DNA of 64,000 nucleotides from the NCBI GenBank assembly GCA_028554755.1, contig JAPTOF010000021.1:6115001-6179000 (forward strand), in the 5' to 3' direction. Below the pieces are notes generated by a model. It ran no database searches and was not told the origin of the DNA. It was given only the letters and a program-made list of their open reading frames with translations. Each line of letters begins with the position of its first letter. The stretch's first letter is position 1. Made by a program: the position numbers and the translations under genes. Source of the stretch: Cordia subcordata (taxonomy: Eukaryota > Streptophyta > Magnoliopsida > Boraginales > Cordiaceae). This document shows positions 417 to 40,536 of the stretch, piece by piece.

Positions 417-560
417 CGTGGACTGGGAAAACCTCTTGGTGGAAGGCTTTGAACTGAACAATGAGGGATAGTTCATCCCACCAAAGTGGGATGATATAGA
501 GGTCTCAACTGATCCTAATGAGTCTGGTGAAGAAGATCCAGATGATCTGACATCATCTTC
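417..560 (-). CDS. TASH3: TASH3 exon ([20 protein letters not shown]), last exon in window
   Basis: The exon encodes [40 protein letters not shown] and a short tail to a GTAATG donor at 416. An alternative donor a few codons earlier (AG before GTTTTC) cannot be excluded. Nothing in 1-416 resembles the SH3 domain expected next, so the gene continues beyond the left edge. Confidence 0.85.
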
Positions 561-15500: not shown

Positions 15501-18500
15501 GACTACAGATGAGTATCTTAAAACTTGTTTTTATGTTGCTGTCACACCTTCTTTGTTGTCAAATATTGCTGCCTTATCAACTGCTGCTGAGATCTGGGCC
15601 ACACTGGAGCAAAGATTCAAGTGTGCGAGCATCTCTCATATCTATCATCTGCGGAATAAACTGGTCAACATCACAAAAGGTACAAAAACAATTCAACAGT
15701 ACTTGAATGAAATCAAAGTACCAAATGATAGTTTGGCAGCAGCAGACGAGGCCTTAAAAGAAGAAGTTGTCTTCTACATCCTTAAAGGTCTTCCTCCAGT
15801 ATATGATTCTCTGATCTCTTCTATTAGAGTCAGGGAAACTCCTATCTTAGTCTCAGCACTTACTAGTCTCCTCTTAGTGAAGAGCTTAATCTCTACTTCA
15901 AAAATAAGCTAGTAGTGTCTAATGTCTTTACTTCTACTCCTACTGAGGTTCAAACTGCTCTTTATACAAATATTAATGCAACGAGAGACTGGGGTAAAGG
16001 CAGGAATTCATCCAACTATAACAGAGGAGGAAGAACTTCAAAAGGACAAGGCAGAGAAGCAGCTCAACAGGGACACACTGCTCATACTACAGGCTTTGTA
16101 GTCTGTCAAATCTGTAATAAGCCAAACCATAATGCCCTTCAGTGCTGGCACAGATTTGATGAAGAAAACTACTTCTATGTGAAACCAGAGCCTGCCACTC
16201 AGTCTGCTTTCATCACTCAGTCTACTTCTTTTGCTACTTCAAGCTCCACCTAGTTCTTGAACAACGGAGCTACAACACGTGTCACCAATGACCTCTTACA
16301 GGTTCCTCATCCTTCGACCCACACAGGTGCAGACAAAGTGTCTGTGGGCAATGGTGCTACTCTCTCCATTCATAATATAGGGCATGGTATTCTTCATACT
16401 CCTCTCGCTTCCTTTCATGTTTTTAATCTATTATATGTACCTTCTATATCCTCTAACTTGCTCTCAGTCTATCAATTAACTCATGGAAATAACTGTGCTA
16501 CAATTCTTTATGACAAGGGGGTGAAAATCCTGGACAACACATCTAGTTTGGTGCTGTACCAGGGCCCCTGTAAGCATGGACTCTGTCCTATTCCTTCCAG
16601 TTTTTCATCCAGTCCATCTAATGTTTCACAAGTTTTACATTGTGTTTGCAGTTCACCAAACACATCTCTGGACATGGCACTTAAGGCTGGGACACCCTTC
16701 AAGAACTGCATCTTTCATGTTTCTAGGTCTATAAATAAATAGTTAGGATACTATTCAGAGCATTGTATAGACTGTTCTGTAACTAAGGCTCACAAGAAGC
16801 CATTTCCTCTTTCTAAAAATAAAACTAGTTCTCCTTTTGACCTTGTAGTTACCCTTTTGACCTTGACCACTTTGATGCATGGACCTTCCCCTTTGGCTTC
16901 TTCTATGAATTACAGATACTACATAATTTTTCTTGATGACTTTACTAGATTTTCATGGATATACCCATTATAGAACAAGTCTGATGCCTTTTCTGCTTTC
17001 CAGAGTTTCTCTGCTATGGTTCAGACTCAATTTGCTTCTACCATCAAACAGTTTAGAACTGATAATTGTGGGGGGGGGGGGGGTGGGGAGGGAGTTTATC
17101 AACAAACAGTTTGGGTTATTTCTTCAACAACTGGGCACAATTCATCAAACAACCTACCCTCATACTCCTGAGCAAAATGGGAGGGTTGAAAGAAAACATC
17201 TCCATTTAATAGAGCCCTGGCATTACTTAACCATAGCAAACTTCCTGGCAAGTACTGGCTAGAGGCTTTAGCCACTGCCAATTACTTGATTAGTAGGCTA
17301 CCCACTCCTACCCTTCACAATAAATCCCTTATGAATGCCTCTATGCAGAATTGACTAATTATGATGCTCTGAGAGTTTTTGGTTGTTTATGTTTTCCTTG
17401 GCTAAGATCATACACAAATCGTAAATTGCAAAATAGGTCTATTCCATGTGTTTTCCTAGGCTATTCTTCAACAAGAAAGGGATATAAATGTCTAGATACT
17501 AAAACTAACAAGTCACATGTCTAGACATGTTCAATTTGTTGAAAATACTCTCTCTTTTGCAACACAGTCCACTGAGTCCTTACCACCTGATACCTTCCCA
17601 GCCTTCTTTCAAAGCACCTAGCCCTCAGACCTCTATACTCAGTCTGTGCCATTCATATTTTCCCATCCTATATTTCCAGCAGAATCCTCACACTCTACCC
17701 AACCTACAGTGTCAACACCCACTCTTAATTCTGATCCTAGTCCAGTGTTCTCCCACACACCAAGTTCTTCACATGAGACTTCTTAGTCTAATTCCTCTTC
17801 CTCAGCTACATTTCACACTCAGGATCCTGCACCCTTTTCAATCCCAGTATCTACTACTTCAAATCCTCCAAACACTCATCCCATGCACACTAGAAGTAAA
17901 ATAGGATCCTTGCCACCACCACTGTATAATTTGAATCATGTGGCCCTTGCACCATTAGACACTGAACCAGCCACCTATAAGGAAGCTTCCAAATATCCAT
18001 TTTGGCAAAATGCCATGGAGGAAGAGGTTGCAGCCTTACAAAGACAACAAACTTGGACCTTAGGTGCTTTAGATAAACGGTCTTTAGATTGTAAATGGGT
18101 ATTCAAAATAAAAAGGAATGCAGATGGGACAATCTCTAGGTACAAATCTAGGCTTGTTGCCAAAGGTTATCACCAAGAATATGGTCTAAACTACTCAGAG
18201 ACCTTCAGTCCAGTGGTAAAATCTCAGACTACTAGGATTGTATTGTCTATGGCATTACATTTTGGGTGGTCTTTACACCAAATGAATGTTTCTAACCTTT
18301 TTGCATAGAGACCTACAAGAAGTTTACATGGACCAACCTCAGAGGTTCACTGATGCAATACACCCTACTTATGTTTGCAAACTAAATAAATCCCTCTATG
18401 GGCTTAAGCAAGCCCCTAAAGCATGGTATTCCAAGTTATCTACTTTCCTGTTATCACAAGGTTTTGTTAATACACCTGTAGACACTTCACTATTTGTGCA

Positions 18501-21500
18501 ACATACTATATCTCATATTCTAGTGCTTCTAGTCTATGTAGATGACATTGTGCTTACAGGGAATTCAAAGGCTGCAATACAAAAGTTTATCCCTATCATG
18601 CAAACTCAGTTCTCTATGAAATATTTGGGCCATCTCCCATATTTCTTGGGTATTGAAGTTCAGCAATGTTCTCCTGGTCTTGTTCTTAGTCAGACCAAAT
18701 ATGCCAGTGAATTACTTCTTAAAGCTGGCATGGACAATTGTAACCCTGCTCTGATTCCAATTGCTTCAAAACAGTCTAATTCTCAAAGGTTGCCTTCTGT
18801 GCCTTTAGATAATCCTACATTGTTCAGGAGCCTAGTAGGTGCACTTTAGTATCTTACAATGACAAGACCAGAAATTCAGTTTGCAGTCAGTGCTATCTCT
18901 CAAAAAATGCACCCACCTACTGAGCAAGGCTTCATAGATCTTAAAAGGATCCTCAGATACATAAAAGGGACTCTATATCAAGGGCTACTCTTTAAACCTG
19001 GAGACCTCACCTTGCATGCCTTCTCTAATAGTGATTAGGCTTGTGATTATCTTGATAGGAGATCTATCTCAAGGTTTTGTGTCTTCCTAGGTCCCAATCT
19101 TATTTCCTGGAGTTCCAAGAAATAAGCAACAGTGCTAGGAGTTCTACTGAAGTTGAATATAGAGCAATGGCTCATGCTTCTTCTGAAATTACTTGGCTCT
19201 CTTATATCTTACAAGCTCTGCACATTCTTGTTCAGGTTCCAACTCTAGCTTGTGACGACCAGTTTGCCATGGCCCCTGGCCTTTGATCCAGTGTTCCATG
19301 GTAGAACTAAACATATAGAGCTGGATTATCACTATGTAAGAGAGTTAGTAGTTACCAAGAAGCTCCATATGTTCTACCTATCTACATCAGAATGGACTGC
19401 AGATGTTTTCACTAAGTCACTGCCTACTGCTCAGTTTTACTATCTCAAAGGCAAGTTTCCCCTGGTGGCCCAGCCTCAGCTCGAGGGAGGATGATAGAGT
19501 AGTCAGTTAGGCATTTAATATGTATTGTAATTGTTAGTAGAGTAATACAGCTGGACAAGATTGTTAGTATAATTAGTTATGCTTGTAACTACTAGTAGAA
19601 GATGCTAGCCAGAGTAATACAGCTGGACAGGTGTTAGCACAAGTTAGTTATGCTTGTAACTGTTTCTAGAAGATACTAGCCAGCTGTACTACAACTATAA
19701 ATCTTTGTATTGTTGTTACTGATCATTACAGAATGGAAAAAATATATACAATACACTTTTCTCTCTCTAAATTTCTTCACAACTTAACTTATTGAGAAAG
19801 CTGAAAGGTGTCCTAAAGAGAATGAATAGAATAATAAAATCAGTAGCAAATTTTAGAGCTTAGAAGAAATCTTGCTTTCTTTGGCAAACTGTGTTGCTCC
19901 ACAACTCAATTTCAACAATAAATCAGCTATGGACTTTTCAATTACTAAATGCCCCTAATATCTCAGATTATCGCAAGCTCTAAGAAATTCTGGTATGATA
20001 TGAAGAGAAAGAATCATATGAAGCATAAAGAGACACATAATAGTTACAGAAAGGACAATCAGGAACATCATAACCTATGAATTAAAATAAACGTGGCAGG
20101 GAACAAAACTTTGCTCTATATTGGTTATTGTACTGTCACTGCCTTTTAAATACCTTAAAACGAGCATGCAAGGTCAGTAATACATCATTCAATAAAGCTG
20201 CTGGCCAAGCTGGATCAGACAACTCTGATGCTATAATGGACTTCAATTCATCAAATGATTCATATGGACTTTGCATCCATATTAGTGCTTTTATAACCAC
20301 AGCACGGACATAAACACATTCGCATGCAACAGTTGTTCGCACCACCTCCATTACTGAAGCTAACAAACTTGCAATTGTATCCTTGCCACTTGTCCCATTA
20401 GATGTTGAAGAAACCCTTCGTATACCTAGCAAGAAAAGGAAAATAAGGATATAGAAAACTAGTGCACAGATATTTAGCAAAAGAAGTTAACATCTTCGAT
20501 AATGTGAATCAAAAGCGAAAAGCTACATGAAACAACAGCTTTGAGATGTTCTTGAGCTTATGTATCCCAAGCAATCACAATAGGTGATTCACTGCATACA
20601 AAGCCATAAAAAGCACAAAAATGAGAATAAAAACTGAATAGCATCTCCCGTTCCACATGGAAGCACGAAATCAAATACCATTTATAAATTGAGAACTGCT
20701 TTCACTAATGGTAAATTTCCTTTTTGCATACATACACATATATATATATGTGTGTCCGTGTGTGTGTGCGTATGACTCATCTCAAATTGTTTGATGCTTG
20801 GATAGACATTTTGTATTGATAATAGGACGCCATTGATGTATCATATGATCCGACTAAATGAACCAGTTTCCATCCTATACACCCAACTAAAAATCTCCGA
20901 TAATCTTATAAGCCTCAAAACAGCTACAGATATAAGAGCTAACAAGACTATTTTGACCTCCTGAATACAATCCATATTCCAACTCTCAAGACATTTATCT
21001 ACTAGCTTGTCACTAGGTTTCAGTAGTTAAACTGATTAAAAATCAGATGCTCAGGTCTATCAGTAATTTGTCATCCTTCACTTTTGGAAGAAAATACAAT
21101 GTAAGAAAACGTTTACACTATACATAGAATTATAAGTTTATGTCATTGGAGGAAATGCAACAGGTTGCACACGTGTTTCTTTAGTACAATTTCTAATAAA
21201 ACTAAGAGAAGCAAGTGTCATGCTAGAAACCCTTTCAGAAGGACAGTGTCAGGGCCTTAAAAACAATGTCTCAAGTAATATGAGTGCTTCTGGAAGGAAA
21301 TATTAGGAGCAACAGAATTTATTGATTTAAGAAAAAGAAAGTAATCTATATGTTGCCTTACGTGAAAAGGGAAAATGACAACAAAAGGATTCCAGATGTT
21401 CGAATTTTTAAGAGCCCACAAACAAATTACCAGTAGAGAATTGCATTGATAGGAGAATAGTGGGCAAGTTAGGTTCAAATATCTGCAAGAAAACAATACC

Positions 21501-24500
21501 TATAAACAAGATGACTAGTGGACTAAATGCTGTGAATTTAGGTATGAATAGAGCACCAAGAAGTGAAAGTTCTTAAGCCAATCTAATGAAAGCTTTAGGC
21601 ATGAATCTGAGCAAGAGTAATCACTTCACTAACTTGCAAAATAGAACAAGCGATAGGTAATTCAATTGACATGGAACAAAGACGATGTCAACATGAAAAT
21701 ACTTCAACTAAGAAGAATTAGCCCTATATTAGAGAAGCATATCATCTTGGCAATGACGAAAATTTCTTTGGCTACAAAAATTTCTAAGCCTAAACGGAAC
21801 TGGCAATTAGAGAAAGATCTAGAGAAGTTGTAACCAAAAAACGTTAGAGTAATCATTACCTTTAGATTGAGAGGTTGGGTTAATATCTGGATCATATGAA
21901 TCAGTATTTTCATAGTATGAATCAACATAAGCTCCTTCATCAATATCAAGACCTAAAGCAAATGCAGCAGCACGGCTTTTACCCATCTCTTGCACTACTC
22001 TAGCAGCTGCATGAAGTACAGGCCGAGAGAAACTACGAAATGAACTCTCCAACCTACCAAAAAAGAACAGTGGTAGAACATGAAAACTCCCATAAAACCA
22101 CCCTATCCTTGTCGACTTAACAAAAAAAAGTTCTAATTACAAGTACATAATGTTGTAGAGAGAGAAGTAGAAAGTGATAGAAGCAGCAAATGGACCTCCG
22201 CATCACAAGCTTGATCAGTGCTTGTGGACGTCGTGTCTTAGATTTTTTTTTGGCCTTACGTGGAGGCACATCTTTTGATTCTGAATTGAAGTTGTTACCA
22301 AAAGGAACTTCTGGAAGTTTCAGAATTTCTCTAGTTAGACAGTACCACCCAGCAGCTCGTTCCTCAGTCCTACAACAGAGAAGAACCAGAAAAGAATTTA
22401 AGTATATGAAGTTCAGAAATATCATTTCTTTGAGAAAGGAGAAGCACTAATTCAGATACAAATTAATACCTGTCTGCAATATCAAATTTACCCAATACAC
22501 AAAGGATGGCTTCAAAACAAACTCTTTCACTTGGATCAAGTAGCAGTTGATACAACAAAGAACTATATTGGGCCTTAATGTCTGGCCTTTCTGTGAGTGC
22601 CACAGTTAAGAGGGTAGAGGTTACAACAAATCATCCTTGCATGATATACATCTATTAATGCAAGGCAGGAAGAAGTATGTGAGAACTAACTGCAAATATA
22701 CATACCATCTAATGCCCGAGCTTTTGATATTTTACAGCACAATTTCGCAAGGGCAACTCTGGCAAGAACATCATGCAAATGAAGAACATCCTGCAAAGCC
22801 CCTGATTTGTACAAATTTTGATAAATCTAAGGATGAAAGAGAAGATTCCATCAGTTGATAGAAATGATGTATAATTGAAATTAAATACATACCTCCAGGT
22901 TGGACGTGCTTTTCTGAAGAAAGACAACAAAACTTTGAGAAGTCAACCTTTGATGAAAGATGCCATTCAAAAACATGCTTTAGGAAATAATGATGCACCA
23001 ATGACACAAAGAGTCATTTTGCAGGTAGAGGATAACCAATTCAAGAGTTTAGTAGAATGAAACGACAACGACAATACAGACGCAAATTTTACGAAATATC
23101 AAATATGTATTATCTTAATGTCAAGAAATGATAAATCCAAAATAATTACAACCCTAATGGCATGGATAATCAGGAAAGAAATTGAGGAAAAATTTCAAGA
23201 TAAAAAGAGTTTTCAAAGATGAATGGCTTCTAGATCACTGAAAATCTCATTGCAGTGCTAAGACATAACTCATTGATGAATGTGGTATAGAAGATAACTT
23301 TATAGGGAGTATGATCCACAAAAGGTAAGTTCTCTCTAGAATTACATTTGTTAAAAGGAAGAAAGAGACATTAAAGGAATAATATTGTGTTATTTAACAA
23401 ACTGTATTTATTTAACCTTACTGTATTAGACCCTTCTTCTATAGGGCCAAGTACAAAGGAATATAAAGCTCTTTTTCCAATATGAGACATACTTACATAA
23501 ACACTATTCTTAGTCTCAACAACTTTTTATCTCCCAAATAGTGTCTCAGTGAAATCAAGTTCAGTTGTTGTATAAGAAATCATTTAGACCCTTCAACTCT
23601 TCACTATCAGTGATATTATTATATATCTTAACTAATAATAGATTTTCCTATTGCTTATAGGCATGTGTTTCACTTGTGTGCTAAATGAGATGACAATATT
23701 GGTACTTGTCGAAGTACCAAAATTTACATCATGACACAGAAAACATCTAAACGCAAGAGTTCAAGCATCATAGTTGTTGATACTGGAATCTAAAGAGAAC
23801 AAATGAAAAGGTTGACTTCTACCATACATCATCAGATTTTGTAAAGATTAACTTCATCAAATTACCTAGCGACATTGAGATGGCATATGGATCACTTGCG
23901 GCTAGTTGAGACAAGATTTCCAACGAATGCCTCACTGCAACTGGATCAGCAGACAAAACTCTGACATAACATAAGAAACATCTTAAAAAAGCTTTTTAGT
24001 GTGCCTACCACTAACTGTAAACCATTAAAAACCCGAGTAGCCCTTCCAACAACCAAAAAGAAAAGACACATTCAAAAATTAGTCAATATAAATTGTTCAT
24101 ATATCTTTATTTCTGGTTTATGTATGTGTGCATGCAACTTCAAATGATAAAGGGAATGTTAAAATGCTCTAAGAATTAACACTCAAAAGAACTCCTCTAA
24201 AAATCTCTGACACGTCACTTTTATTTATCCAATAATGTTCTCCACTTCAAAATACATTGATGAGGTATACTATGACTAGGGGTGTACAATCAGTCATAAA
24301 AACCGTAATAATCGATTCTGTTGAATCGAATCGATCGAAAACCATTGGTTTTTAACATAATTTGATCGGTTGCGGTTTTAATTTTGAAATACCGCCATGG
24401 GTGGTTCGGTTAACGGTTTCAAAGGGTAAAAACCACGGTTTAACCGAACCGCCCGACTATATTGCCATTATATATTTTTATATATTGATAGACTAGATAG

Positions 24501-27500
24501 AATAGTTGCATAAAGTCCTGACAGCTGTAATTAATATTCTGCCTGCTAGGCAGTTAGTTATAGTAGTGCATGTGTTCAAGTAGTCAGTCAATTAGTTATT
24601 GACTTACATTGACTTGTAGCTCAAGATATAGATATACTATAAATATCTAGTTGTAACTACTTCTCAATAATAATGAAATCATTTTCTCTTTCATTTTACA
24701 TGGTATCAAGAGCAGAAAAATCCTGGAGAATATTTTTTTTACAGATGCCATAGTTGTGACCTTTAATCATCATTTTTTTTTCTTCTTCCTTTTCTCAAAA
24801 CTCCTCCATCATCTTTTTACCCATATCATTGCGAGCAGATTCATATAATTTTTCACATATTTCTTCACTTTTCTCCTTTTGATTTCTCACTTGTCTACTT
24901 TGCGCAAGTTAGGGTTTCCTCATCAATGAAACCTTTATTTTTTCTTTAATTCTTCAACAGATCATAATCAAATCAGTTTTAATCTTCTTGTCTTTCACTC
25001 ACCTTACAAATTCATATAATTTTCATACAATTTCTTGTTTGTTCTCATTGTCTAGGGTTTTCTCTCATCGATAACAGCTTCATAGCTTCTTCTTATGGCT
25101 TTACCTTCAGATTTAGCTATGTTTCCTAGACTCAAGGTTCTCATGAGGAATCTATCTGGTCTAGTGCATATTAAACTAGACAACAACAATTACTTCCAAT
25201 GGAAATCTCAGATGGAAGCTCTACTTTCTGCCAATGATCTTCTTGATCATGTCACAGGAGCAGCTCCTTGTCCTCCTCGCACAGTTATTCAACCTGATGG
25301 CTCTGTTGTGGTTAATCCAGAATACACTAATTGGATTACCATTGACAAGCATCTCAAAACTTGTGTCTATGCCTCTATCTCTTCTAAAGTCTTCTCTAAA
25401 GTGTCTCAGTTGACCTCTGCTGTAGCTATATGGAGTGCATTGGCTACTAGGTACAATTATCTCACTAGAGCACACATTCAACAGTTGAAACTGAAGTTAC
25501 ACAATTTACACAAAGGTACTCAAACTATGCAGTCCTATTTGGATCAAGTCAAAAATATTACAGATGCTCTTGCAGCAGCTTCAGTTATTGTTGATCCTGA
25601 AGATATTATCTACTACATCCTCCAGGGGCTACCATCTCAGTTTGATTCCTTTAAAGCTTCTATTCGAACAAGATCTACTCCTCTCTCTGTTCCTGAACTA
25701 GTCAATCTTCTTATTTCTGAAGACCTTATCATTCAAACTTCTACTATGTCTCTCAATTCCACTACACAGGACACTCACACTACTCTTACTGCCACTAACA
25801 ATAACACTACTAATGCTGCTTTTAGAGGCAGAGGTGGCAAGGGCAGAGGGTTTTGAGGGAGAGGTGGTAGAAATGGAACTGGTCGGTCTAATCAAACTGC
25901 TCCTGGCATATTAGGAACACCACCTACTACTGGACTATCTGCTACTCAATCTCAACAGTTCCAGGCTGGTCAAGCTTATGCCCAGTCATATCCTAGATTA
26001 CAGTGACAAATTTGTGGTAAGCCCAATCATTCTGCAATAGAGTGTTGGCATAGGTATGAACATATCAATTATGGCAATCCTAAACAAGGCAAACAAGCCA
26101 TGACTGCTCAGTCTGCAGCCTCCTTATCTAGTTCTAGTTCTGAATGGTTTTTGGATAATGGTGCAAACACTCATGTCACAGCAGATTTAAACAACTTTGT
26201 GGTTGCTCAGCCATATCAAGGAACTGATACAGTGCCTGTTGGTAGTGGACAGAATTTACCTATTCAACATACTGGGTCAGGTAAACTATATACACCTACT
26301 TCACAGCTTGTTCTTACTAATCTTCTTCATGTTCCTGATATATCCACTAGTCTTCTTTCTGTCTACCAACTCACTAAAGATAATTCATGTACTCTTGTTT
26401 TTAATTCAAAGGAGGTGACTATAGTGGACAATACTACAAGCAAGGTCCTGTTCAGGGCCCCCTGTAGGAATGGACTCTCTGCACTTCCTTCATCAGTCAA
26501 CTTTGCTGCTTCCTATCAATTCAATAATAAAAGGGACAAGACTGCACTAAGTACTGCAGCAATTCCTGCTTCCATTCAGTGTCATAGCTCTACTGTTACA
26601 CAAGCTGCTACTCATCTCTGGCATGCCAGGCTTGGACATCCAGCTTCTTCTGTTCTGCAACAATTGTCTAGTGAATTAGGTTTCGTTTGTACTTCTAATT
26701 CACTGCAGTGTGTTTCTTGTGCTGTCTCAAAATCTCATAGGTTATCTTTTCCCACATCCCCAAGTGTATTCCCTAACTCCTTTTCATTTAGTTCATGCAG
26801 ATATATGGGGACCATCCCCTGTGCTTTCTTGTATGGGATACAAGTACTACTTCTTATTAATGGATGATTTTTCCAGATTTATATGGAGTTATCCACTCAA
26901 ACTTAAATCTAATACCTATGATGCTTTCCTGAGTTTTAATTCCATGGTTACTACTCAATTTAACACCACAATAAAGCTATTCAGATCTGATAATGGAACT
27001 GAATTTGTTAACAAAAAGTTTCAACATCTTTTTCAGTCTCAAGGCACTCTACATCAAACATCTTGTGCACATACACCTCAACAAAATGGCAGGGCTGAGA
27101 GGAAACACAGACATCTTATTGAAACAACTTTGTCTTTACTCAACCAAGCTTCCCTACCCTCTGAATATTGGTTAGAAGCCCTTGCCTGTGCCAATTTTTT
27201 AATTAATAGACTTTCTACTCCCATTTTAGACTTGGACACCCTTCCTTTGATACTCTTAGAATTATGTTTCCATCCTTGTTTAAGAGTATTGACGTAAATG
27301 TTTTTCACTGTGATGTTTGTGAATTTGCTAAACACCGACGTGTTTCCTTTCCTTTAAGCAATAAAAGAACTATAGCTCCTTTTTCCCTAATCCACAGTGA
27401 TATTTGGGGTCCATCTCAAGTCCCCAACATTTCAGGGGCTCGTTGGTTTGTTTCTTTCATTGATGATTGTACTCGGGTTACATGGATTTTTTTGTTAAAA

Positions 27501-30500
27501 CAAAAATCTGATGTGAGCAACATTTTTCCTCTCTTTCATAAAATGGTTAAAACTCAATTTAATGTTGGAATTAAAAGGTTGAGGACAGATAATGCTAGAG
27601 ACTATTTCAATCAAACTTTGTCCTCATACTTTCAAAAGGAGGGAATTATTCATGAATCTTCATGTGTTAACACACCCCAACAAAATGGGATTGCCGAAAG
27701 AAAAAATGGTCATCTTTTGGCCACTGTTCGTGCTCTTTTGTTTCAGAAAAATGTTCCAAAATCTTTTTGGGGGGAAGCTGTCCTAACTGCAGCTTACCTT
27801 ATAAATCGCATCCCATCACGGGTCCTTGACTTTAAAAGCCCAATGGAGGTTTCTCTAAGTATTTTCCAGATTTCAATGTGTTAACTAATTTAGCTCCTAA
27901 AGTTTTCGGATGTGTCTCATTTGTTCATGTTCACTCTCATGGTCGAAGTAAGTTAGACCCTAGAGCTATCAAATGTGTCTTCACAGGGTATTCACCTACT
28001 CAGAAAGGGTACAAGTGTTATGATCTCACTGCTCGTAAAACATATGTATCTGCTGATGTCACATTTGTTGAACAAGAAAACTATTTTTCTAGTCCTCATC
28101 TTCAGGGAGAGACATTATCTATGGAGGGCAAGGATTTATTTTTGAGAGAGCCATCTATCTTAGCCAAAACACTTTTGCAAATTGAATCCACCCCTGAACC
28201 TACTTTCGAAGAGCCTACAAAGTCAGTTTCTAATCTCTCTGAAGAACCATTAAGTCCAATAAATCCTACTTCCTCGAAGCCACTACAGGTCTACTCAAGA
28301 AGAATAAAGTCCGTTCCTACGCAAGTTCAAGAGACCGAATCGTCACTTGGGAATGAGGTAAGCCCTTCTGCTAGAAAATCACCTATTGTTCTTGATTTGG
28401 ATCTACCCATAAAATCACCTATTGTTCTTGATTTGGATCTACCCATAGCCACAAGAAAAGGTGCAGGAAGTGCACTCAACATCCTTTATCCCATTTTGTG
28501 TCATTTGGAAAATTATCCCCCTCACACAAAACTTTTCTCGCCCATCTAAACACTGTCACCATCCCGCAAACTTTATCTGAGGCACTTAGCAGAAAAGAAT
28601 GGAAGCATGCAATGAAAGTAGAAATGGAAGCCTTGGAAAAGAACAAAACATGGGAACTAGTGGATTTACCAATTGAAAAGAAACCAGTAGGGTGCAAATG
28701 GGTCTTCACTGTAAAGTATAAGTCAGATGGATCCATTGAGAGATATAAAGCAAGACTAGTAGCCAAGGGATATACACAGACCTTTGGGGTGGATTATCAA
28801 GAGACATTTGCCCCAGTTGCGAAGATGAATACAGTAAGGGTGTTGTTATCTCTAGCAGCAAATTATGATTGGCCTTTACAACAGTTCGATGTGAAGAATG
28901 CCTTTTTGCATGGAGACCTTGAGGAGGAAATCTATATGGAAGTTCCACCTGGCTTTGGGATAAATTTGGATAGGAACAAAGTGTGCAGATTGAAGAAAGC
29001 ATTGTATGGTCTTAAACAATCTCCTCGAGCATGGTTTGGCAGATTTACTAAAGCAATGTTGGATATGAAGTACAAACAGAGCCAAGGTGATCATACTTTG
29101 TTTATCAAGCATTCAACTTCAGGGAAAATCACAGCATTGATAGTTTATGTGGATGATATCATAGTAACTGGGGATGATATAGACGAAAAGGAAGCCCTTC
29201 AAAAGTACTTAGCAGAAGAATTTGAAATAAAGATCTTGGGAAGTTAAAGTACTTCTTAGGAACTGAAGTGGCTCGATCTAAGGAAGGAATTTTTGTTTCA
29301 CAACAAAAATATGTTCTTGATCTGTTAAAAGAATCAGGTAAACTAGGTTGTAGACCATCAGACACACCGATACAGCCAAATCATAGACTAGGAAAGTCTA
29401 TGGGAGACGAACCAGTTGACAAAGGTATGTATCAACGACTCGTTGGGAGACTAATCTATTTGTCACACACACGGCCTGATATTGCATATGCTGTAAGTGT
29501 GGTGAATCAGTTCATGCAAAACCCCAAGGATGTCCATCTCTATGCAGTATATCGTATCTTACAATATTTAAAAGGCAGCCCAGGAAAAGGGATCTTATTT
29601 AGAAAAAGTACAAGCATAGAAGTAGAAGCATACACAGATGCTGATTATGCTAGCTCTATTACTGATAGAAGATCGACATCTGGATATTGTACCTTTCTTG
29701 GTGGGAATTTGGTAACTTGGAGAAGTAAGAAACAACCAGTTGTTGCAAGATCTAGTGCGAAGCAGAATTTCGGTCAATGGCACAAGGTATTTGTGAATTG
29801 TTATGGCTCAAGATTATCCTAGAAGACTTGAAGATTAAATGGGAGACTCCAATGAAGCTTTATTGTGACAATAAGTCTGCAATCAATATAGCTCATAATC
29901 CAGTTCAACATGACAGAACTAAACATGTGGAAGTTGACAGACATTTCATAAAGGAGAAGCTTGAGAGTGGATTGATTTGTACACCCTACATTTCCACAGA
30001 GGGCCAATTAGCATATATCTTAACTAAAGGATTGAAAAATTCAACATTTCAAAAGATTGTGAGCAAGCTAGGGATGGAAAATATCTATTCCCCAGCTTGA
30101 GGGGGAGTGTTGGAAATTCAAAATTAAATTAAATCCCATGATTTATGTGAACTTCCCATTATCTATGTGAATGATAGTAATTGTAGGGACAGATTTGTAT
30201 TCCAATTATAGGAGCTTAGCTGTAAATATATTTTCCAGATTTCTAGGGATTGGTAGAATGTCAAACTTCCCTGAATAGCTCTATCTTGCTGTATAAAATC
30301 TATGTAAACAAAGCATTCAAAATATACACAAAATATTCTAATTTTTTCCTCACCCACCCTTCCCTCAACAAAAAAAAAAAAAAAGCCGAACCAGTTCCGT
30401 GTTTCTTTTCCCCTTTTGCTCTTTTCACTTCTCAAAATTTCACTATTCCTTTTTCTTCTTTTTCTAATAATTCCCAATTTGTGTTCCCTTCATTAATTTG

Positions 30501-33320
30501 TATAAGTTGGGTTATTATTATTTATAGTAAATCTAGTTGTCATAATTAAATATTGATTGAATTATTCAATTTGCACGAACAAGATTTTTTAGATTTGATT
30601 AGACTTTTTCCCTTCAATAATCATAATCTTACTTTCTTCTACTTTAAATAAACATCTAATTTGTTCAATACTCAATAATAAATAATTTTTTTTAAAAATT
30701 TAATATTGTTTTCTTTTACTTTACATAAATATCTTATCTATTCTTTCTAATTAATTTAGAAATTTGCCAAGTCCAATTCATTAGTTCTTTTTTCATAGAA
30801 TAATATCAAGGAGTAATAAAACTAAGGTATGTTATTATACTAGTAAAATTTGTGTTTATTTTTCAAAATTATTTGTATTTTTCACGCTTTATAATATTTG
30901 TAAATATTATGCACTTTAATAAGTCTTCAAATACATTTTTATATATCCATTACAACATTAGTAATTAGCCCCTTCAAATGTTGTTTCATGCCACTGGGAT
31001 GAAGCAAGAATTTTTTTTTTTTTTGGTGGGATCAATATAAGAGAAATTCACATATATAAAAACTTGAATACTTTTTGAGAACATTAATTATTATAATTGT
31101 CCTCAGCAGGATTCGATATTCTAAAAGCATTGTATAACCACCTCATTCAAAACTATTATAAATATATCTTTTTCAGCAAAAATAATTAAACAAGCATTTG
31201 AAATACATCTTCCATTCAATTACCTAACTGATTCTTCATAATACTAATAGTGAAAATTACTCTTTTAAACTAAAGGATATACAATATTTTCTGTCACAAT
31301 CAAAAAAGAAATCATTTTCCTATCATGCATTTGATAAAAATTGATTTTCTTTTATCTTTACATTCTCTTTCTCTCTCTATATACCTTTTTTTCCTCTCCT
31401 CATACAACATACATGTTTTTCTTTTTATTAGTGAAATGTACTCTACAGGTACTACTAATTGTTGACTAAGGAATCAAACCATATCAATTGTTTTATAGAA
31501 TGCTCTACAATGCATTTTGAACTATTTCAAATCAAAATATCTTCACTTTGAATTCATGGTTCAAGTGGCCTCCCTCTTCTAAGACTAGAATTGCCCCTAC
31601 TCTTGCTTCGAAATTCTTGTTTTCAAATCGGATTACAAGTAAAGGTATTAGAATATCTTCTCACATGAAAAAATCATACACATTGAGGCAGCCTTCTAAG
31701 ATCTTAAGCAACTGTAATACCACCAATTAGTTTTAGATGGAAGTCCATGATTCTTGACAATTATAAAGGTGACACTTTTCAAGCAAAAATAAAGAATAAA
31801 TCATAAGACATTGGAAATTTCAGAATAGATGCACTCTAAGATAAAGGTACACATTAACCTCAAAATAGCATAGAGTTATCTGGATAAAGAAAGTTTCTAA
31901 AAAGAAATTTAAAAATATATGTTGAGTTTCTTTTAGCCAGACATTTTTCCCTTTTTATAAGTGTAAAGTTTAAAGCAAGTTGAATAAATAAAGCACAAAC
32001 TTCCAGGTAAGTACATAGTTGAGGCATATAATTATCTGCAGCTTATATTTGCGGATGTTCTTCTTTTTTGTTCATAATCTGTCCAAGGAACTGGTGGTAC
32101 AGAAAATATCGATGGTTCAAAAGGATTGGGATCTGATTTGACTACAAGCCTTAAAACTTTGCTCAGGCTTCCTCAGAGATTTCTCCATTATAATGGCATT
32201 AGCAAGCAATATCTCTAAGATAGCTAAATAAACAAGTAGATGTACAGATTTACATGTCATTATATACCACCAGCAGTACTAGCTAACACATGCACAGATA
32301 TCTTACCATGAAGCTCAGAAACTACAATGCAATGTAATCTATCAAAGTCAGTTAGAATTTGAAATGACCAAATACCTACATATCAACTTAAGGAGTAGGA
32401 AACAATATGACAAATTTGTCAAACTATACATAGTTTCACGCTTCATATCCTTTTATTCATGAAATAAGTAGTTTCTACCTTCCTTTGCATTACTTCTCAT
32501 TTTATTCAACAAGCATACCATCACCTCAGTAAGTGAAAGTCCAGCTGATCTCCAAACATTGCTTCCCCTCAATCAGCAAAAAAGACTTTCCGTGCACATT
32601 CTGTTATTCTTGATCCTTATCCTTGTACCACCCCTTGTTTCACCTTTCCTTTTGAATTGATCTCATAATCTCTTCCCAATTTCCTCAATAAAGATTGATC
32701 CGCGCAAACAAAGTCGAAAATCGAAGTGTTACACTTGTGCAACTAGGAAACTCAGTTAAAATTCACACATTTACACATATGACACCAAGAAAACTTAAAC
32801 CATACAACTTTTTATATACTAAGAACTCGCAAATTTGATACTAGTCGCCAAATACTTCCTCAGATTCCCAAAATAATCCCCAATTTCAGAAACGTTATAT
32901 CATGAAATCCCGCTGATTATCATAACTATTTGAAGTAATCCATCAGTAATCCATCCATACTGTTATCTTTGTATCAACAAGCGGTACAAGATGATCACGT
33001 GATCAAACTTTAACCATCCGAGTAAACATCAACTACTAGTGAAATTCGCAGAATCATCCAACTAAAAGCATGCATTGTGAAATGAAAATACTTACCCTTC
33101 CCTTTTGCTTTTGAGGCATGATGTTAGCACGGACGGTGGCTTTAGCGGCAGAGATGGTTCCGCTCTGGATCTGCACCAGCTTATCCCTCTTCGATTTCTG
33201 CTCCGACGTCATTGGAATCGCCACCGCCACAGGCGGCGCCGGCGTGTCTGCCGGCGGTGGCGCCGTCGACGACGACGTTCTCGCCTTGGGAGGCGGCGCG
33301 TCCGACGATATTAGATCCAT
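417..33320 (-). CDS. TASH3: TASH3 homologue, TPLATE/TSET complex subunit (gene span, 16 exons seen, incomplete)
   Basis: This split gene encodes a homologue of Arabidopsis TASH3, a large HEAT-repeat protein with a C-terminal SH3 domain. TASH3 is part of the plant TPLATE/TSET complex, which acts at the plasma membrane in clathrin-mediated endocytosis. Exons in order are 33096-33320, 23866-23960, 22893-22913, 22706-22801, 22470-22590, 22196-22369, 21860-22053, 20154-20425, 14028-14129, 11778-11954, 11492-11680, 3179-3420, 2919-3065, 1532-1742, 655-783 and 417-560. From 23960 downward every junction has AG/GT sites and matching phase, with no stop. Conserved blocks include [24 protein letters not shown] and [17 protein letters not shown]. 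The SH3 exon(s) should lie left of the window. The exon(s) between the first two are not found, so this copy may be a broken allele. Identification rests on remembered family sequence, not on an alignment. Confidence 0.88.
655..783 (-). CDS. TASH3: TASH3 exon ([20 protein letters not shown])
   Basis: The exon has forty-three codons, [20 protein letters not shown] through [17 protein letters not shown]. It is phase 0 at both ends, with a GTTAG acceptor and a GTTGGA donor. It belongs to the acidic linker before the SH3 domain. Confidence 0.88.
784..1531 (-). other. TASH3 intron, no further feature
   Basis: Non-coding DNA between exons 1532-1742 and 655-783. I see no repeat, RNA gene or coding segment. 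Confidence 0.7.
1532..1742 (-). CDS. TASH3: TASH3 exon ([20 protein letters not shown])
   Basis: The 211-nt exon encodes [20 protein letters not shown], then [14 protein letters not shown], a short Thr-rich variant region, and [20 protein letters not shown]. It ends at GTGAGT in phase 0. The ORF drawn over this region in another frame is a shadow. Confidence 0.88.
1743..2918 (-). other. TASH3 intron, no further feature
   Basis: Intron of about 1.2 kb. The small ORFs here have no recognisable domain and no family match. No transposon end was recognised. Confidence 0.65.
2919..3065 (-). CDS. TASH3: TASH3 exon ([12 protein letters not shown]...YLPLGPT)
   Basis: The exon encodes [40 protein letters not shown] and KYLPLGPT, ending in phase 2 at GTATGT. 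Its first base completes the Lys codon of the previous exon. Confidence 0.9.
3179..3420 (-). CDS. TASH3: TASH3 exon ([20 protein letters not shown])
   Basis: The 242-nt exon starts [20 protein letters not shown] and continues through [20 protein letters not shown] to [10 protein letters not shown], ending in phase 2 at GTATGA. The 8.1-kb intron before it (3421-11491) carries at least three copia remnants. The 3' LTR-proximal edge of one element lies only 123 bp from this acceptor. Confidence 0.92.
3544..3758 (+). repeat. 5' LTR of copia 1
   Basis: It starts TGTTAGAGTATAGGCAA and ends just before the PBS-like TGGTATCC at 3759. It matches 8397-8611 along its whole length. Confidence 0.9.
4149..5150 (+). 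pseudogene. copia 1 gag, broken
   Basis: Starts [11 protein letters not shown] and resembles the UBN2-type gag of copia elements. In-frame stops occur near 4254 and 4529. The longest open part (4554-5204) holds the capsid-like region ([20 protein letters not shown]), a Gly/Arg/Asn-rich stretch ([14 protein letters not shown]) and a CCHC zinc knuckle, [16 protein letters not shown], for RNA binding. It cannot yield a full protein. Confidence 0.85.
5150..8392 (+). pseudogene. copia 1 pol, broken
   Basis: Domains in order are: aspartic protease with an intact [14 protein letters not shown] motif (about 5153-5195); integrase HHCC zinc region ([20 protein letters not shown], about 5585-5710); integrase core ([10 protein letters not shown], about 5752); reverse transcriptase ([13 protein letters not shown] near 6995, [10 protein letters not shown] near 7437); and RNase H ending [19 protein letters not shown] (about 8389). 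Stops and frameshifts interrupt it many times. One integrase position usually read DNG is DKDG here. Confidence 0.85.
8397..8611 (+). repeat. 3' LTR of copia 1
   Basis: It matches the 5' LTR and follows a purine-rich tract (AGCTTGAAGAAGG). It is followed by the AGGGC target duplication. Confidence 0.9.
9007..9800 (+). pseudogene. copia 2 gag
   Basis: Copia gag (UBN2-like) containing [44 protein letters not shown] and the block [15 protein letters not shown] stop interrupts it near 9366 and a T-run near 9550 coincides with a frame change. It fuses at about 9800 to reverse-transcriptase sequence ([10 protein letters not shown]). Confidence 0.75.
9800..10460 (+). pseudogene. copia 2 RT C-terminus and RNase H
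   Basis: It holds the end of copia reverse transcriptase ([20 protein letters not shown]) and RNase H pieces ([27 protein letters not shown]). It is broken by stops, and a short segment (about 38 bp) is duplicated in tandem near 10046-10123. Confidence 0.75.
10640..11445 (-). pseudogene. copia integrase fragment, minus strand
   Basis: Read on the minus strand it shows integrase core pieces: [40 protein letters not shown], and the post-core block [16 protein letters not shown] with [13 protein letters not shown]. This is a different element from copia 2, in the opposite direction and in the same sense as TASH3. Its edge lies about 50 bp from a TASH3 splice donor. No LTR was found. Confidence 0.75.
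11492..11680 (-). CDS. TASH3: TASH3 exon ([20 protein letters not shown])
   Basis: The exon has sixty-three codons: [20 protein letters not shown], then [20 protein letters not shown] and [14 protein letters not shown], ending at GTATGT in phase 0. A decayed copia integrase fragment begins only about 50 bp beyond its donor. Confidence 0.9.
11778..11954 (-). CDS. TASH3: TASH3 exon ([20 protein letters not shown])
   Basis: The exon has fifty-nine codons beginning [20 protein letters not shown] and ending [18 protein letters not shown] before a GTAAGA donor. It is phase 0 at both ends and contains no stop. Confidence 0.9.
11955..14027 (-). other. TASH3 intron, no further feature
   Basis: About 2.1 kb of AT-rich intron. 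None of the small ORFs has a recognisable domain, and no transposon ends were recognised. Confidence 0.65.
14028..14129 (-). CDS. TASH3: TASH3 exon ([20 protein letters not shown])
   Basis: The exon has thirty-four codons, [20 protein letters not shown] and [14 protein letters not shown], flanked by a TTATTAG acceptor and a GTACGT donor. It is phase 0 on both ends. A 5.1-kb copia element sits in the intron upstream of it (higher coordinates). Confidence 0.88.
14648..14944 (+). repeat. 5' LTR of copia 3, with internal duplication
   Basis: The 297-bp LTR contains two diverged copies of a roughly 75-bp unit, each running from AGTAATACAGCTGGACAG to AGAAGATACTAGCCAG. Confidence 0.88.
15256..16253 (+). 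pseudogene. copia 3 gag, broken
   Basis: Starts [10 protein letters not shown] and stops at once. The next open parts are 15445-15912 ([32 protein letters not shown]) and 15915-16253, which has the CCHC knuckle [16 protein letters not shown]. It shares its layout with the copia 1 gag. Confidence 0.83.
16254..19494 (+). pseudogene. copia 3 pol, broken
   Basis: The protease motif reads [11 protein letters not shown], where copia proteases normally have WxxDxGA. The catalytic Asp is now Asn, and the preceding Trp position is a TAG. The integrase region (about 16650-17300) is interrupted by a run of 14 G near 17070. Reverse transcriptase is fairly whole: [41 protein letters not shown] and [10 protein letters not shown] (18535-18565). 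RNase H has [10 protein letters not shown] and ends [18 protein letters not shown]. Several stops and frameshifts are present. Confidence 0.85.
19492..19779 (+). repeat. 3' LTR of copia 3
   Basis: The 288-bp LTR has the same internal two-copy structure as the 5' LTR. It ends TTTCTTCA. Confidence 0.88.
20154..20425 (-). CDS. TASH3: TASH3 exon ([20 protein letters not shown])
   Basis: The 272-nt exon encodes [27 protein letters not shown], then [20 protein letters not shown] and [20 protein letters not shown], ending LLTLHARFK at a GTATTT donor in phase 0. This is the best conserved segment seen. Confidence 0.92.
20426..21859 (-). other. TASH3 intron with a small microsatellite
   Basis: Intron without recognised coding or transposon sequence. 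A mixed TA/TG microsatellite lies at about 20738-20775. Confidence 0.65.
21860..22053 (-). CDS. TASH3: TASH3 exon ([20 protein letters not shown])
   Basis: The exon encodes [20 protein letters not shown] then [20 protein letters not shown]. An acidic, Tyr/Ser-rich linker follows. It ends in phase 1 at GTAATG. Confidence 0.9.
22196..22369 (-). CDS. TASH3: TASH3 exon (TEERAAGWY...LIKLVMRR)
   Basis: The exon encodes [20 protein letters not shown], a Lys/Arg-rich linker (about [15 protein letters not shown]), and then LIKLVMRR. It ends in phase 2 (AG before GTCCAT), so the final Arg codon is completed by the first base of the next exon. Confidence 0.9.
22470..22590 (-). CDS. TASH3: TASH3 exon ([18 protein letters not shown])
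   Basis: The exon encodes [10 protein letters not shown] then [20 protein letters not shown] and ends in phase 2 at GTATTA. It is open, with consensus splice sites, and contains strongly conserved residues of the family. Confidence 0.88.
22706..22801 (-). CDS. TASH3: TASH3 exon ([15 protein letters not shown])
   Basis: The exon encodes [20 protein letters not shown] followed by KARALD and ends in phase 1 at a GTATGT donor. It is a HEAT-repeat segment, and its boundaries keep the phase of both neighbours. Confidence 0.88.
22893..22913 (-). CDS. TASH3: TASH3 microexon, 21 nt
   Basis: Twenty-one bases lie between a TTCAG acceptor and a GTATGT donor. They supply the residues KHVQPG, matching the KLVEPGG block of the family. 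The phase fits exactly on both sides (two bases, six codons, one base). Without this piece the flanking exons remain in frame but lose seven conserved residues. Confidence 0.8.
22914..23865 (-). other. TASH3 intron, no further feature
   Basis: Nearly 1 kb separating the microexon from the exon at 23866. No recognisable repeat or coding segment. Confidence 0.6.
23866..23960 (-). CDS. TASH3: TASH3 exon (HEAT region, [13 protein letters not shown])
   Basis: The exon starts one base before a full codon (phase 2) and reads [16 protein letters not shown]..., ending MSLG in phase 1 at a GTAATT donor. The block ADPVAVRH is a family signature. The upstream partner exon, which should end with two bases of a Gly codon, is not found in the window. 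Confidence 0.88.
24274..24485. mobile_element. hAT-like terminal fragment
   Basis: Begins TAGGGGTGTACAATCAG, continues with many ACCGGTT-like words (GGTTCGGTTAACGGTT, AACCGAACCGCC), and stops at the copia LTR. This is the usual look of the end of a plant hAT element. No matching other end was found on the far side of the copia insertion. Confidence 0.5.
24486..24700 (+). repeat. 5' LTR of copia 4
   Basis: Defined by TG at 24486 and CA before the PBS at 24701. It has a TATA-like ACTATAAATATC near its 3' part. No partner LTR is present in the window. Confidence 0.8.
25095..26060 (+). pseudogene. copia 4 gag, two stops
   Basis: [20 protein letters not shown] opens a long gag of 253 codons (capsid-like part with [20 protein letters not shown] and [20 protein letters not shown]). 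A TGA ends it in the Gly/Arg-rich stretch at about 25854. A second TGA (about 26005) replaces the residue just before the knuckle [15 protein letters not shown], so the first Cys is affected. It is otherwise the best preserved gag of this group. Confidence 0.85.
26100..27228 (+). pseudogene. copia 4 protease and integrase, truncated
   Basis: The protease motif [14 protein letters not shown] keeps its Asp (about 26142-26185). The integrase zinc region has [10 protein letters not shown] and [11 protein letters not shown] frame change near 26790 leads into the core: [37 protein letters not shown] and [17 protein letters not shown]. It is cut off at the junction with copia 5. Confidence 0.85.
27229..30100 (+). 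pseudogene. copia 5 pol (integrase, RT, RNase H), frameshifted
   Basis: The integrase zinc part has [14 protein letters not shown]. The core has [20 protein letters not shown] and [25 protein letters not shown] has Ala where Gly is usual. RT has [51 protein letters not shown] and [11 protein letters not shown]. RNase H has [49 protein letters not shown] and ends MENIYSPA. Four small indels (near 27850, 28460, 29245 and 29760) break the frame. A 36-37 bp segment is duplicated in the linker at 28376-28449. Confidence 0.87.
30108..30370 (+). repeat. 3' LTR of copia 5
   Basis: TGTTGGAAATTC to CCCTCAACA, with inverted TGTTG/CAACA ends. A run of A follows directly. No partner LTR is present. Confidence 0.82.
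30371..33095 (-). other. Rest of TASH3 intron 1, missing exon(s) not found
   Basis: Very AT-rich DNA. I searched both strands for the family's next blocks (SYSQLARSIHEL, LNQQCEDR, LRRLPLDPGN) and saw none. A 47-codon open stretch on the minus strand near 32032-32172 has protein-like composition but no start, no clear splice context and no match I know. Confidence 0.55.
33096..33320 (-). CDS. TASH3: TASH3 exon 1 (N-terminus)
   Basis: The exon encodes 75 codons starting MDLISSD, then a Pro/Ala-rich low-complexity stretch, then the conserved block [20 protein letters not shown] and [10 protein letters not shown]. It ends in phase 0 at a strong GTAAGT donor. It is far more GC-rich than its surroundings. 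The ATG at 33320 is chosen because an in-frame TAG lies 9 codons upstream (33345-33347). The codons just upstream of this ATG would read EGTTL, which resembles the usual N-terminus of the family, so the ancestral start may have been lost. Out-of-frame ATGs occur upstream (33351 and 33369). Confidence 0.85.
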
Positions 33321-34744: not shown

Positions 34745-35978
34745 CTATTCCATTATACCAAATAGACGTTTAGTAGAGTAACCTAAAAGTATACCCTCAT
34801 CCGATTTAGCATCAAATTTTCTCAAGTGATACTTTGTATTTAAAATAAAGAATTTACAACCAAAGACCTTAAAATATAAAATCTTAGGGGTTTTGCCATG
34901 CCAAAGCTCATATAAGGTTTTATTCAAAATGGGTCTATTAAGGACTCTATTTTGCACATAACGTGTGGTGTTAACGGCTTCACTCCAAAAGTATGTTGGC
35001 AAGTTGTGTTCTTTAAGTATAGTCCTTGTCATTTCTTATAAAGTACGATTCTTCCTCTCTACTACCCTATTTTGTTGAGAAGTCTAAGGGGCCGAAAAGT
35101 TTTGTTCAATGCCATGCTCAGCACAAAAATGCATAAAATGAATGTTCACCTATTCCATGCATTATTACTATAGATGCAAGTTATAAAATAGCCTGTCTCA
35201 TTTTGCACTTTTCTACACAATTTTGCAAATTTATTGAAGGCATCATTTTTGCATGCAAGAAACATGATCCATGTAAATCTAGTGTAGTCATCTACAACAA
35301 AAAAGATATATCTAGAACCACCTAGGCTAGCCACATTAATTGGTCAAAACAAATCTATATGCAATAATTGTAATGCTCTATTAGTCGAAACCGAGTTGAT
35401 GGATTTGGAAGAAGTTTTATGTTGCTTTCCTAATTGACATGTATCACATACTTTGTCTTTTTCAAATTTGATTTTAGGCAAATCTCTGACAAGATAATGT
35501 TTTGACAAATCTTTCAACAAACTCATGCTAGCATGCCTTAATCTTCTATGCCATAACCAAGTATTATCATTAACAACCGATAAGCATTTAACACATTGAT
35601 TTTCAAGTTGATCAATCTCAACAGTGTACACATTATCATTTCTACTAGTAACAAATAGCACATTTTCACTATCACAATCATGCACAATGCAATTAGAAGA
35701 TTGAAATACCACTTTGTGACCTTTATCACGCAATTGACTAATACTAAGCAAGTTAAACTTAAGACATTCTACAAGCAAGACATAATGAATAGCAAGGGAA
35801 TCCTTATTACCAATGCTTTCTTTACCAATTATCTTTCCTTTGCTATTATCTCTAAATGTTACACCTCCATCTTTGGTTCCCTTCAATTCGTAGAATAATG
35901 ATGGGTTTCCCATTATATGTTTGGAACAACAACTATTCAAGATCCACTTTATTTTGCTAGTTTTGCTCACGTGGCATA
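34745..35978 (-). pseudogene. copia 6 protease and integrase, truncated
   Basis: The protease region reads WILNSCCSKHIMG, where the family has WxLDSGCSxHMTG, so both the Asp and the Gly are changed. The integrase zinc part has LWHRRLRHASMSLL and CDTCQLGKQHK. Core pieces are RALQLLHIDLF, GSRYIFFVVDDYTRFTW and, further left, YFWSEAVNTTRYVQNRVL and KVFGCKFFILN. The element ends abruptly near 34745. Confidence 0.82.
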
Positions 35979-38334: not shown

Positions 38335-40536
38335 ATGTCAAGTGGGGATGCTAATGCAATCATTATTAAAGATGCTTCTTCTAGACATGATCCACTGATA
38401 CCAACATCTAATGAAGATGCAACATCAGATGGAGGTAACGGATATGTTCGAGGTAATGCTAAGAAAAGAACATTAAAACCTAGATCTTATGTTTGGGATT
38501 ATTTTATTAAATTTGAGGACAAAGATGAAAGTTCAAAATTCAAGTGTAATTATTGTGGAAAAGTGCTTAAGGCAGATACTAAGCAAATAGGTACTTCTAC
38601 TTTGAGATATCATTTGAATATGTGTAAAGAATATCCTACTAACAAAGATACTAGCCAAACGAAATTGAATCTCCAAAAGGGTGGAGCACTTGTTAATTGG
38701 AAATTTGATCAAAATGCATTTAGGAAATCATTGGCTCGCATGATAATCATTGATGAATTGCCATTTAGGTTTGTTGAATTTGAGGGCTTCAGAGATTTCA
38801 TGGCAGAAACTTGTCCAATGTTTAAGATACCTTCAAGAGCCACAATGACTAGAGATTGCTATGAGTTGTACATTGATGAGAGATGCAAGGTGAAAAGTCT
38901 TTTAAAATCTGACACTCAAATGGTTAGCATCATAACAGACACATGGACATCAAATCAAAGAATTAACTACATGTGTGTGACAACTCATTTTATCACTAGT
39001 GAGTGGATATTGGAAAAAAGAATTATTAGTTTTGTTCCCATTTCAAGTCACAAGGGTGAGGCAATTGGGTAGGCATTAGAAAAGTGTTTGCTTGACTGGC
39101 AGATAGATAATGTGTTTACTATAGCTGTTGATAATGCATCCTCTAATGATGTTGCTGTTGGTTATTTGAGCAGAAAATTGATTCAGCATGAGAAATCTAT
39201 TTGCCAAGGTAAATTTTTGCATATGAGATACATTGCACACATTATTCAGCTTGTTGTTTCTGATGGTTTGAAAGAAATGAATGATTCTGTTCATAGAGTT
39301 CAAGCTGCAATTAGATATGTGAGACAGTCTCCAGCTAGATTAAAGAGGTTTAAGGATTGTGTTAGCATGGAAAAGATTGAATGTAAAAAGTTATTGTATT
39401 TGGATGTTCCCACTAGGTGGAATTCTACATATTTGATGTTGGATACTACTTTGAATTTTATACCTGCATTTGAAAGATTTAAGGAACAAGATCCATTATT
39501 TGAAAGTGGTGAAAATAAAGGAGTACCAAATGAGATAGATTGGGATAATTTGAAAAGATTTGTACTCTTTTTAAAGCATTTTTATGACTTCACTGTCAGG
39601 GTTTCAGGCTCATTGTATATGACTTCGAACAATTTCTTTCATGAAATTAGTTCAATTCATTGTCTTTTAAATAAGTGGATTGATGAAGGTGATTTTCAAT
39701 TGAGTTCCATGGCTCAAAGGATGAAAAGCAAATATGACAAGTATTGGGGTAGGATAGAGAAGATGAATTCATTGATTTACATTGCTCTTGCTATGGATCC
39801 TCGATACAAGATGGCATATGTTGACTCTCTACTTAGTGAGATGTATGATTCTATTAAGAGAGTGGAAATGTCTGTGAAAGTTAAAAAAGAATTAACGGAT
39901 TTGTTTGAGAAGTATACTAGAATTTATACTTCTCATTTTGCTCAATCAAGTGGGAATGGCTCTAGTTTGTCAAGTAGTGGTTTAGATGTCATCGATATGA
40001 GAGCACTGATGAAGTCTAAATTTAAGAAGCATAGATCAGATTTAGGGGTGGGTGAGTTCAAGTTTGAGTTGGAGAAGTACTTGAGTAAAGATATTGAGGA
40101 AGAAAGTGAAAACTTTGACATTTTGGCATGGTGGAACGTTAATAGTCCTCGTTTTCCAATCCTTTCGCGCTTGGCATGTGATGTGTTGGCAGTTCCCATC
40201 TCAACTGTAGCCTCTAAGTCAGCATTTTCTTCAGGTGCACAGGTACTTAATGATTTCAGGAGTTCTTTAACTCTTAGAATTGTTCAAGCCTTGATTTGTG
40301 CGCAACATTGGCTTCATCAGAAAGTCGAGTTATGATTGAAGAAGACATACATGACCTTGATAAACTTGAAGAAGGTACTAATATCTCAATTTTATATCTC
40401 TAATCTTTATATATTTACAATTATTTTCTTCGAATTATTTTGTTAAGTGAATAATAACATTTAATATTTGGTCTTTTATTTCTTAGACATATCAAAGTTA
40501 GCATTGGAGCCAACAAACACAATGACTGAAATTTGA
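38335..40536 (+). pseudogene. hAT transposase, one stop, one frameshift, Glu-to-Lys
   Basis: BED zinc finger at residues 51-100 (SYVWDYF; C71, C74, H93, C97), then TDTWTS (D202) and, after an in-frame TAG at 39070-39072 (codon 246), VDNASSND (Asp at codon 266). The C-terminal hAT dimerisation region starts at FDILAWWNVNSPRFPILS. The usual ASESAFS motif reads ASKSAFS (codon 628). Near 40315 the frame shifts: the family's expected tail (VMIEEDIHDLDKLEE) is in the next frame and splices through an intron 40375-40486 to a short last exon ending at 40536. A splice acceptor sits directly before the ATG (TTTTTCTAG), so the first intron lies in the 5' leader. Total length, about 700 codons, is normal for the family. 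Confidence 0.88.

Follow-up and report, generated by a model that had tools for sequence, protein, structure and literature searches.

TASH3 in the window

The window, a stretch of 64,000 nucleotides of the Cordia subcordata genome, corresponds to C14:6115001-6179000 in an assembly of 472 Mb and 62 contigs. TASH3 lies on its minus strand, with two partial retrotransposons occupying the interval between exon 1 and exon 8 (Table 1). The DNA of exon 1 has one match only in the assembly. All 15 exons from position 23960 down to position 417 are bordered by AG/GT, and together they form an open frame of 774 codons. Splicing exon 1 straight onto exon 8 reads SFVC-stop, which places a stop at the fifth codon. 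Both observations agree with the earlier note on this DNA, which had described the downstream exons as open and phase-consistent and had predicted an early stop from the clash between the phase 0 end of exon 1 and the phase 2 start of the next exon. Exons 24-26, which lie outside the window, align to the SH3 end of the relative P0027 and end in VLYVSQS-stop. In the proteins of the relatives, on which the domain was scored, SH3_1 falls at the C-terminal stretch that matches these exons.

Table 1 Features of the C14 TASH3 gene and of the interval between its exons 1 and 8.
Feature	Coordinates	Strand	Basis or remark
TASH3 exon 1	33096-33320	-	from MDLI methionine, 75 codons, ends in phase 0, donor GTAAGT
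Rest of intron 1, to the edge of element B	30353-33095	-	no missing-exon match inside
Element B, 3' half, other Copia family	27222-30352	+	Pfam domains, ends, genomic copies
A-B join, shared CA	27222-27223		A-type and B-type copies read
Element A, 5' half, Copia	24486-27223	+	Pfam domains, element ends
TASH3 exon 8, next exon still present	23866-23960	-	partner C6:10771752-10771658
TASH3 exon 9, 21 nt	22893-22913	-	C6 partner; too short for tblastn match
TASH3 exon 10	22706-22801	-	AG/GT borders, tblastn with relatives, C6 partner
TASH3 exon 11	22470-22590	-	as exon 10
TASH3 exon 12	22196-22369	-	as exon 10
TASH3 exon 13	21860-22053	-	as exon 10
TASH3 exon 14	20154-20425	-	as exon 10
TASH3 exon 15	14028-14129	-	as exon 10
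TASH3 exon 16	11778-11954	-	as exon 10
TASH3 exon 17	11492-11680	-	as exon 10
TASH3 exon 18	3179-3420	-	as exon 10
TASH3 exon 19	2919-3065	-	as exon 10
TASH3 exon 20	1523-1742	-	as exon 10
TASH3 exon 21	655-783	-	as exon 10
TASH3 exon 22	417-560	-	as exon 10
TASH3 exon 23 (linker), C6 copy	C6:10751968-10751897		72 nt, 24 residues; absent from C14
TASH3 exons 24-26, C14 copy	L002 9280-7656, outside window	-	open to stop codon

A search of 5.8 billion proteins, with 7996 candidates scored, returned 457 relatives. The best 120 of these are 950-1454 residues long and 77-85% identical to the 849-residue window protein over 89-91% of its length. Of the listed relatives that bear names, most are 'SH3 domain-containing protein' or uncharacterized, and one is 'TSET complex member tstB'. 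This similarity over the body of the protein indicates membership in the TASH3 family; the name TASH3 comes from the earlier note and fits the features of the family. When a 358-residue piece served as query in another protein search, 53 relatives were returned, the top-scoring of which is 80% identical and none of which is evidently from Cordia subcordata. A sequence search of the PDB gave no match.

The C14 copy lacks exons 2-7, which amount to 644 nt or about 215 residues. In relative P0003, the corresponding N-terminal segment between the products of exon 1 and exon 8 comprises residues 88-304 (217 residues); the earlier note had expected about 200. That note had found no exon between exon 1 and the ADPVAVRH exon (exon 8) and had suggested tblastn as a check. 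With the missing segments of 92 of the 120 listed relatives as queries (those with both bordering motifs recognisable), tblastn gave nothing credible in the window; the best match (E 0.010, 23% identity, 3588-3319) overlaps a known exon. As a control, full-length relatives searched against the window recovered exon 1 as well as 14 of the 15 exons downstream of it and missed only the short exon 9 (22913, 21 nt). Nor does the segment occur within 100 kb of the window in either direction, which speaks against a move of the exons to a place within this distance.

A further exon loss lies near the other end of the gene. Neither blastn nor tblastx against the C6 copy described below detected a counterpart of exon 23 in C14, where exons 22 and 24 are 1.1 kb apart (window 1-416 and L002 9281-10000); this second loss is in-frame. 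We also considered a frameshifted start as a further lesion, since an ATG that lies 31 bases before the MDLI methionine is out of frame. It was not counted because TTLMDL occurs near the start in only 84 of the 120 listed relatives, the others starting with MDL or carrying MTLM, and because the 30 bases upstream of the C6 exon 1 match hold no ATG.

A second TASH3 copy on contig C6

A six-frame search of the whole assembly with P0003 yielded 39 matches (38 of 45 candidates scored), 17 of them on C14 and 22 on C6, where they span 10.728 to 10.788 Mb. Exons 3, 4, 5, and 7 match C6 only, whereas exons 2 and 6, which are too short to be listed in this search, were found only in the C6 stretch. Modelled from DNA with AG/GT borders, exons 2-7 of the C6 copy measure 60, 93, 220, 107, 63, and 101 nt and are located between C6:10785670 and 10773667. 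Exons 1-22 of this copy form 1072 codons with no stop; the last exons were placed by tblastn match alone, except for exon 23. The C14 gene is one of two duplicates, and the C6 copy has the exons that C14 lacks. The earlier note's suggestion of an allele broken at its 5' end therefore holds as regards the break, but not in its implication that the allele is that of a sole gene. Some 23 kb beyond the last exon of the C6 gene, an additional stretch (L032, C6:10727819-10728001) matches TASH3 in its exon 24 portion at 74% and contains one stop in the open stretch; it is perhaps a partial duplicate.

Over 773 codons, the C14 and C6 copies differ by a dS of 0.452 and a dN of 0.0646 and are thus an old pair. 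The resulting pairwise dN/dS of 0.143, together with the 774 open codons and intact splice borders of C14, indicates that constraint acted on this copy during most of its past. C14 nevertheless changes faster than its partner. The copies differ at 93 amino acids. At 47 of these it is C14 that deviates from the family majority and at 25 it is C6 (binomial p 0.013); at the remaining 21 neither copy carries the majority residue. C14 holds 19 residues that occur in fewer than 1% of relatives, and C6 holds 3 (p 0.0009). At columns conserved in at least 99% of the family, C14 has changed at 9 of 405 and C6 at 1 of 405. These counts were made on 121 relatives; in a tree of 30 rows (28 of these relatives plus C14 and C6), the C14 tip measures 0.12 and the C6 tip 0.059. 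Placement in the tree with Lithospermum P0131 and P0027 points to Boraginales as the clade.

The same conserved-column count gives 5 of 409 for P0027, 7 of 104 for Lithospermum P0131, and 10 of 410 for Cuscuta P0025. Fast change alone is no proof of decay, since the Cuscuta value resembles that of C14. A long protein branch had been considered as such proof because the window protein shows 11 changes at 409 conserved columns, while none of 120 relatives has more than 10. In a tree of the window protein and 54 of the 120 relatives, the tips of the window protein and P0027 are equal at 0.14. The long branch was therefore dropped as proof, and the unequal rate is clear only against C6.

Two Copia halves between exons 8 and 1

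Positions 24486-30352 contain, on the plus strand, a Copia-type LTR retrotransposon that is a chimera of two halves. The two share one orientation; element A adjoins exon 8 and element B adjoins exon 1. Element A begins with a 5' LTR (24486-24700; 215 bp, TG...CA) and a primer-binding-like site at 24701, followed by gag, Pol_BBD, GAG-pre-integrase, and integrase. Element B opens with a GAG-pre-integrase that lacks its start (profile positions 28-67 of 67) and continues with integrase, an SH3-like domain, reverse transcriptase, a polypurine tract (30094-30107), and a 3' LTR (30108-30352) that is different from the LTR of A. GAG-pre-integrase and integrase are each present twice in the interval. 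The domains and their order fit Copia, except that A has only the portion from 5' LTR to integrase and B only that from integrase to 3' LTR.

The outer flanks of the chimera are TATAT beside A and CCCAC beside B. They form no common target-site duplication, and their difference indicates two insertions rather than one. A complete copy of B on contig C13 has CTTTC on both outer sides and two LTR tails that are identical over 117 bases; 1,989 bases separate the start of its 5' LTR from the point at which B begins in the window. The B half has at least 14 long genomic copies that are 93-99% identical, the nearest at 99% over 3.1 kb (40 of 615 candidates scored).

To examine the junction, we compared a 400-base query centred on it with the genome and scored 40 of 283 candidates. 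Among the 40 scored matches, only the window spans the join. Twenty-six are B-type and start at query positions 200-206, six of these being shown at 100% identity; 13 are A-type, end by position 210, and reach 95% at best. The overlapping BLAST ends (query 201-210) gave the appearance of a 10-bp microhomology, which was rejected because the copies that were read agree over 2 bp only. When one A-type copy (C23) and one B-type copy (C13) are read across the join, the window equals the former through 27223 and the latter from 27222. Element A likewise aligns with element D, another Copia element of the window, up to 27221 and no further. For this pair of copies the join is non-homologous and shares little sequence (2 bp), as expected for illegitimate recombination.

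Other mobile elements are scattered through the window. Element C, a complete Copia element in the intron between exons 14 and 15 (14648-19780), has LTRs that differ by a K2P of 0.081 and no matching target-site duplication at its ends. Element D is located in the intron between exons 17 and 18 (3541-8610), and its two LTR copies differ by a K2P of 0.121 over 217 bp. Copia remains, judged from translated frames only, occupy the minus strand from 10300 to 11480, starting just past exon 17. Between element A and exon 8, an AT-rich stretch (24270-24470) that starts GGGGTGTACA resembles, on visual inspection, a small non-autonomous DNA transposon. Two adjoining open frames at 38335-40335 encode a BED zinc finger, a hAT-like RNase-H fold, and a hAT dimerisation region, which identifies a hAT DNA transposon. 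Retroelement pieces are found at 35344-35970 (minus strand; GAG-pre-integrase and Pol_BBD) and at 45397-45852 (plus strand; RNase-H-like RVT_3).

Origin of the gap and comparison with known systems

We consider it likely, with a probability of roughly 85%, that end-joining between two intronic Copia insertions recently deleted exons 2-7 of the C14 TASH3 copy. The order of events we infer is as follows. Two Copia elements of different families would have inserted in the same orientation into introns that flank exons 2-7, B between exons 1 and 2 and A between exons 7 and 8. A subsequent break may have been repaired by end-joining, which fused the two elements at their middles over about 2 bp of shared sequence; that the join lacks homology speaks for this mechanism. 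This single joining event would have taken away exons 2-7 together with the 3' half of A and the 5' half of B. The reading frame of the gene is now broken past exon 1, full-length protein would not be expected, and the C6 copy could cover TASH3 function.

The deletion is probably young. Given the close identity of the B half to its genomic copies, the insertion of B is probably recent, and the deletion would be younger still. Consistent with this, the neutral divergence that the C14 copy could have passed through without acquiring a stop, frameshift, or splice lesion has an upper bound of 0.7-1.2%, a rough figure that assumes an indel share of 5-15%. The excess of amino acid changes in C14 probably needs longer than the young B insertion allows, which suggests that relaxation of this copy started before the deletion.

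The gap might instead reside in the assembly, with exons 2-7 of the C14 copy present in the plant and A misjoined to B by the assembler or a chimeric read. B is indeed a repeat with close copies, and the region holds many Copia elements. However, the window is free of N and belongs to a contig of 11.4 Mb, the join is unique among the scored matches, and the 2 bp shared by the copies read are far too little for an overlap-based join. Faster change and the loss of exon 23 moreover fit a decaying duplicate, and we regard such a misjoin as improbable. The earlier note had offered a collapsed assembly as one of its two explanations. The same features of join and contig make this not the better reading; a unique 2-bp join of half-elements is not expected from repeat collapse, which is unlikely, although a small doubt remains. 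Equally improbable is a history in two steps, with a recombination of A and B inside a single intron and a separate deletion that took exons 2-7. The introns of C14 and C6 do not align and give no anchor for the original places of A and B, but this history needs two deletions in one interval where one suffices, and no second rearrangement join was recognised in 23961-33095.

The state of the remaining exons raises a different question, namely whether the C14 copy still works as an N-terminally shortened TASH3 transcribed from a start near exon 8. Its open codons, intact splice borders, pairwise dN/dS, and last exons open to the stop codon would all be expected of such a gene. The same openness would nevertheless be seen if function had been lost within the last 0.7-1.2% or so of neutral divergence, and C14 carries an excess of changes. 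In addition, both elements lie on the plus strand, an orientation in which transcription driven by their LTRs would probably lead away from exon 8. We therefore doubt strongly that the truncated copy works. It is tempting to speculate that a new truncated TASH3, still expressed with its SH3 end, competes with or regulates the complete TPLATE subunit that C6 encodes, but this is less probable still.

Recent deletion by end-joining thus remains our preferred reading, and it bears on an apparent puzzle. The TPLATE complex is reported in PMC13176895 to be essential for plant survival, and one of its subunits seemed broken. A second copy carries the missing exons, so the broken C14 copy need not matter. 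A Boraginales genome paper reports two rounds of duplication for Cordia (PMC10671804). The case cautions against reading much into a broken gene in one window before a search of the whole assembly for a duplicate. It also provides a base-level example of two unrelated intronic retrotransposons that would have taken out the host exons between them.

Compared with TASH3/TSAUCER, the SH3-bearing subunit of the TPLATE (TSET) complex as described in PMC8905187 and PMC13176895, the C14 copy is alike in its 77-85% identity to the listed relatives. Its last exons likewise give SH3-type sequence and the YVSQS end of the family. It differs in being without exons 2-7 (about 215 residues) and linker exon 23, and in a frame that is broken past exon 1.

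Pseudogene formation in a retained gene duplicate is a known process. The C14 case resembles it in that the pair is old, C6 is complete at the missing part, and C14 is truncated and changes faster. Nothing is different in kind, except that the breaking event is here resolved to the base; the case looks like a spare gene decaying, ordinary but unusually clear.

One literature search for exon loss through LTR elements, judged from its listing, found no such paper, which we do not take to mean that none is in print. The proposed deletion is an event of a known kind, well resolved. Plant LTR elements undergo deletions by illegitimate recombination with micro-homology in small patches, according to PMC1940013, which cites Devos et al. 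2002. The C14 deletion is the same in lying inside LTR elements and having little homology at its ends. It differs from the cases described there in that its ends lie in two different elements and that the host exons between them would have been lost as well.
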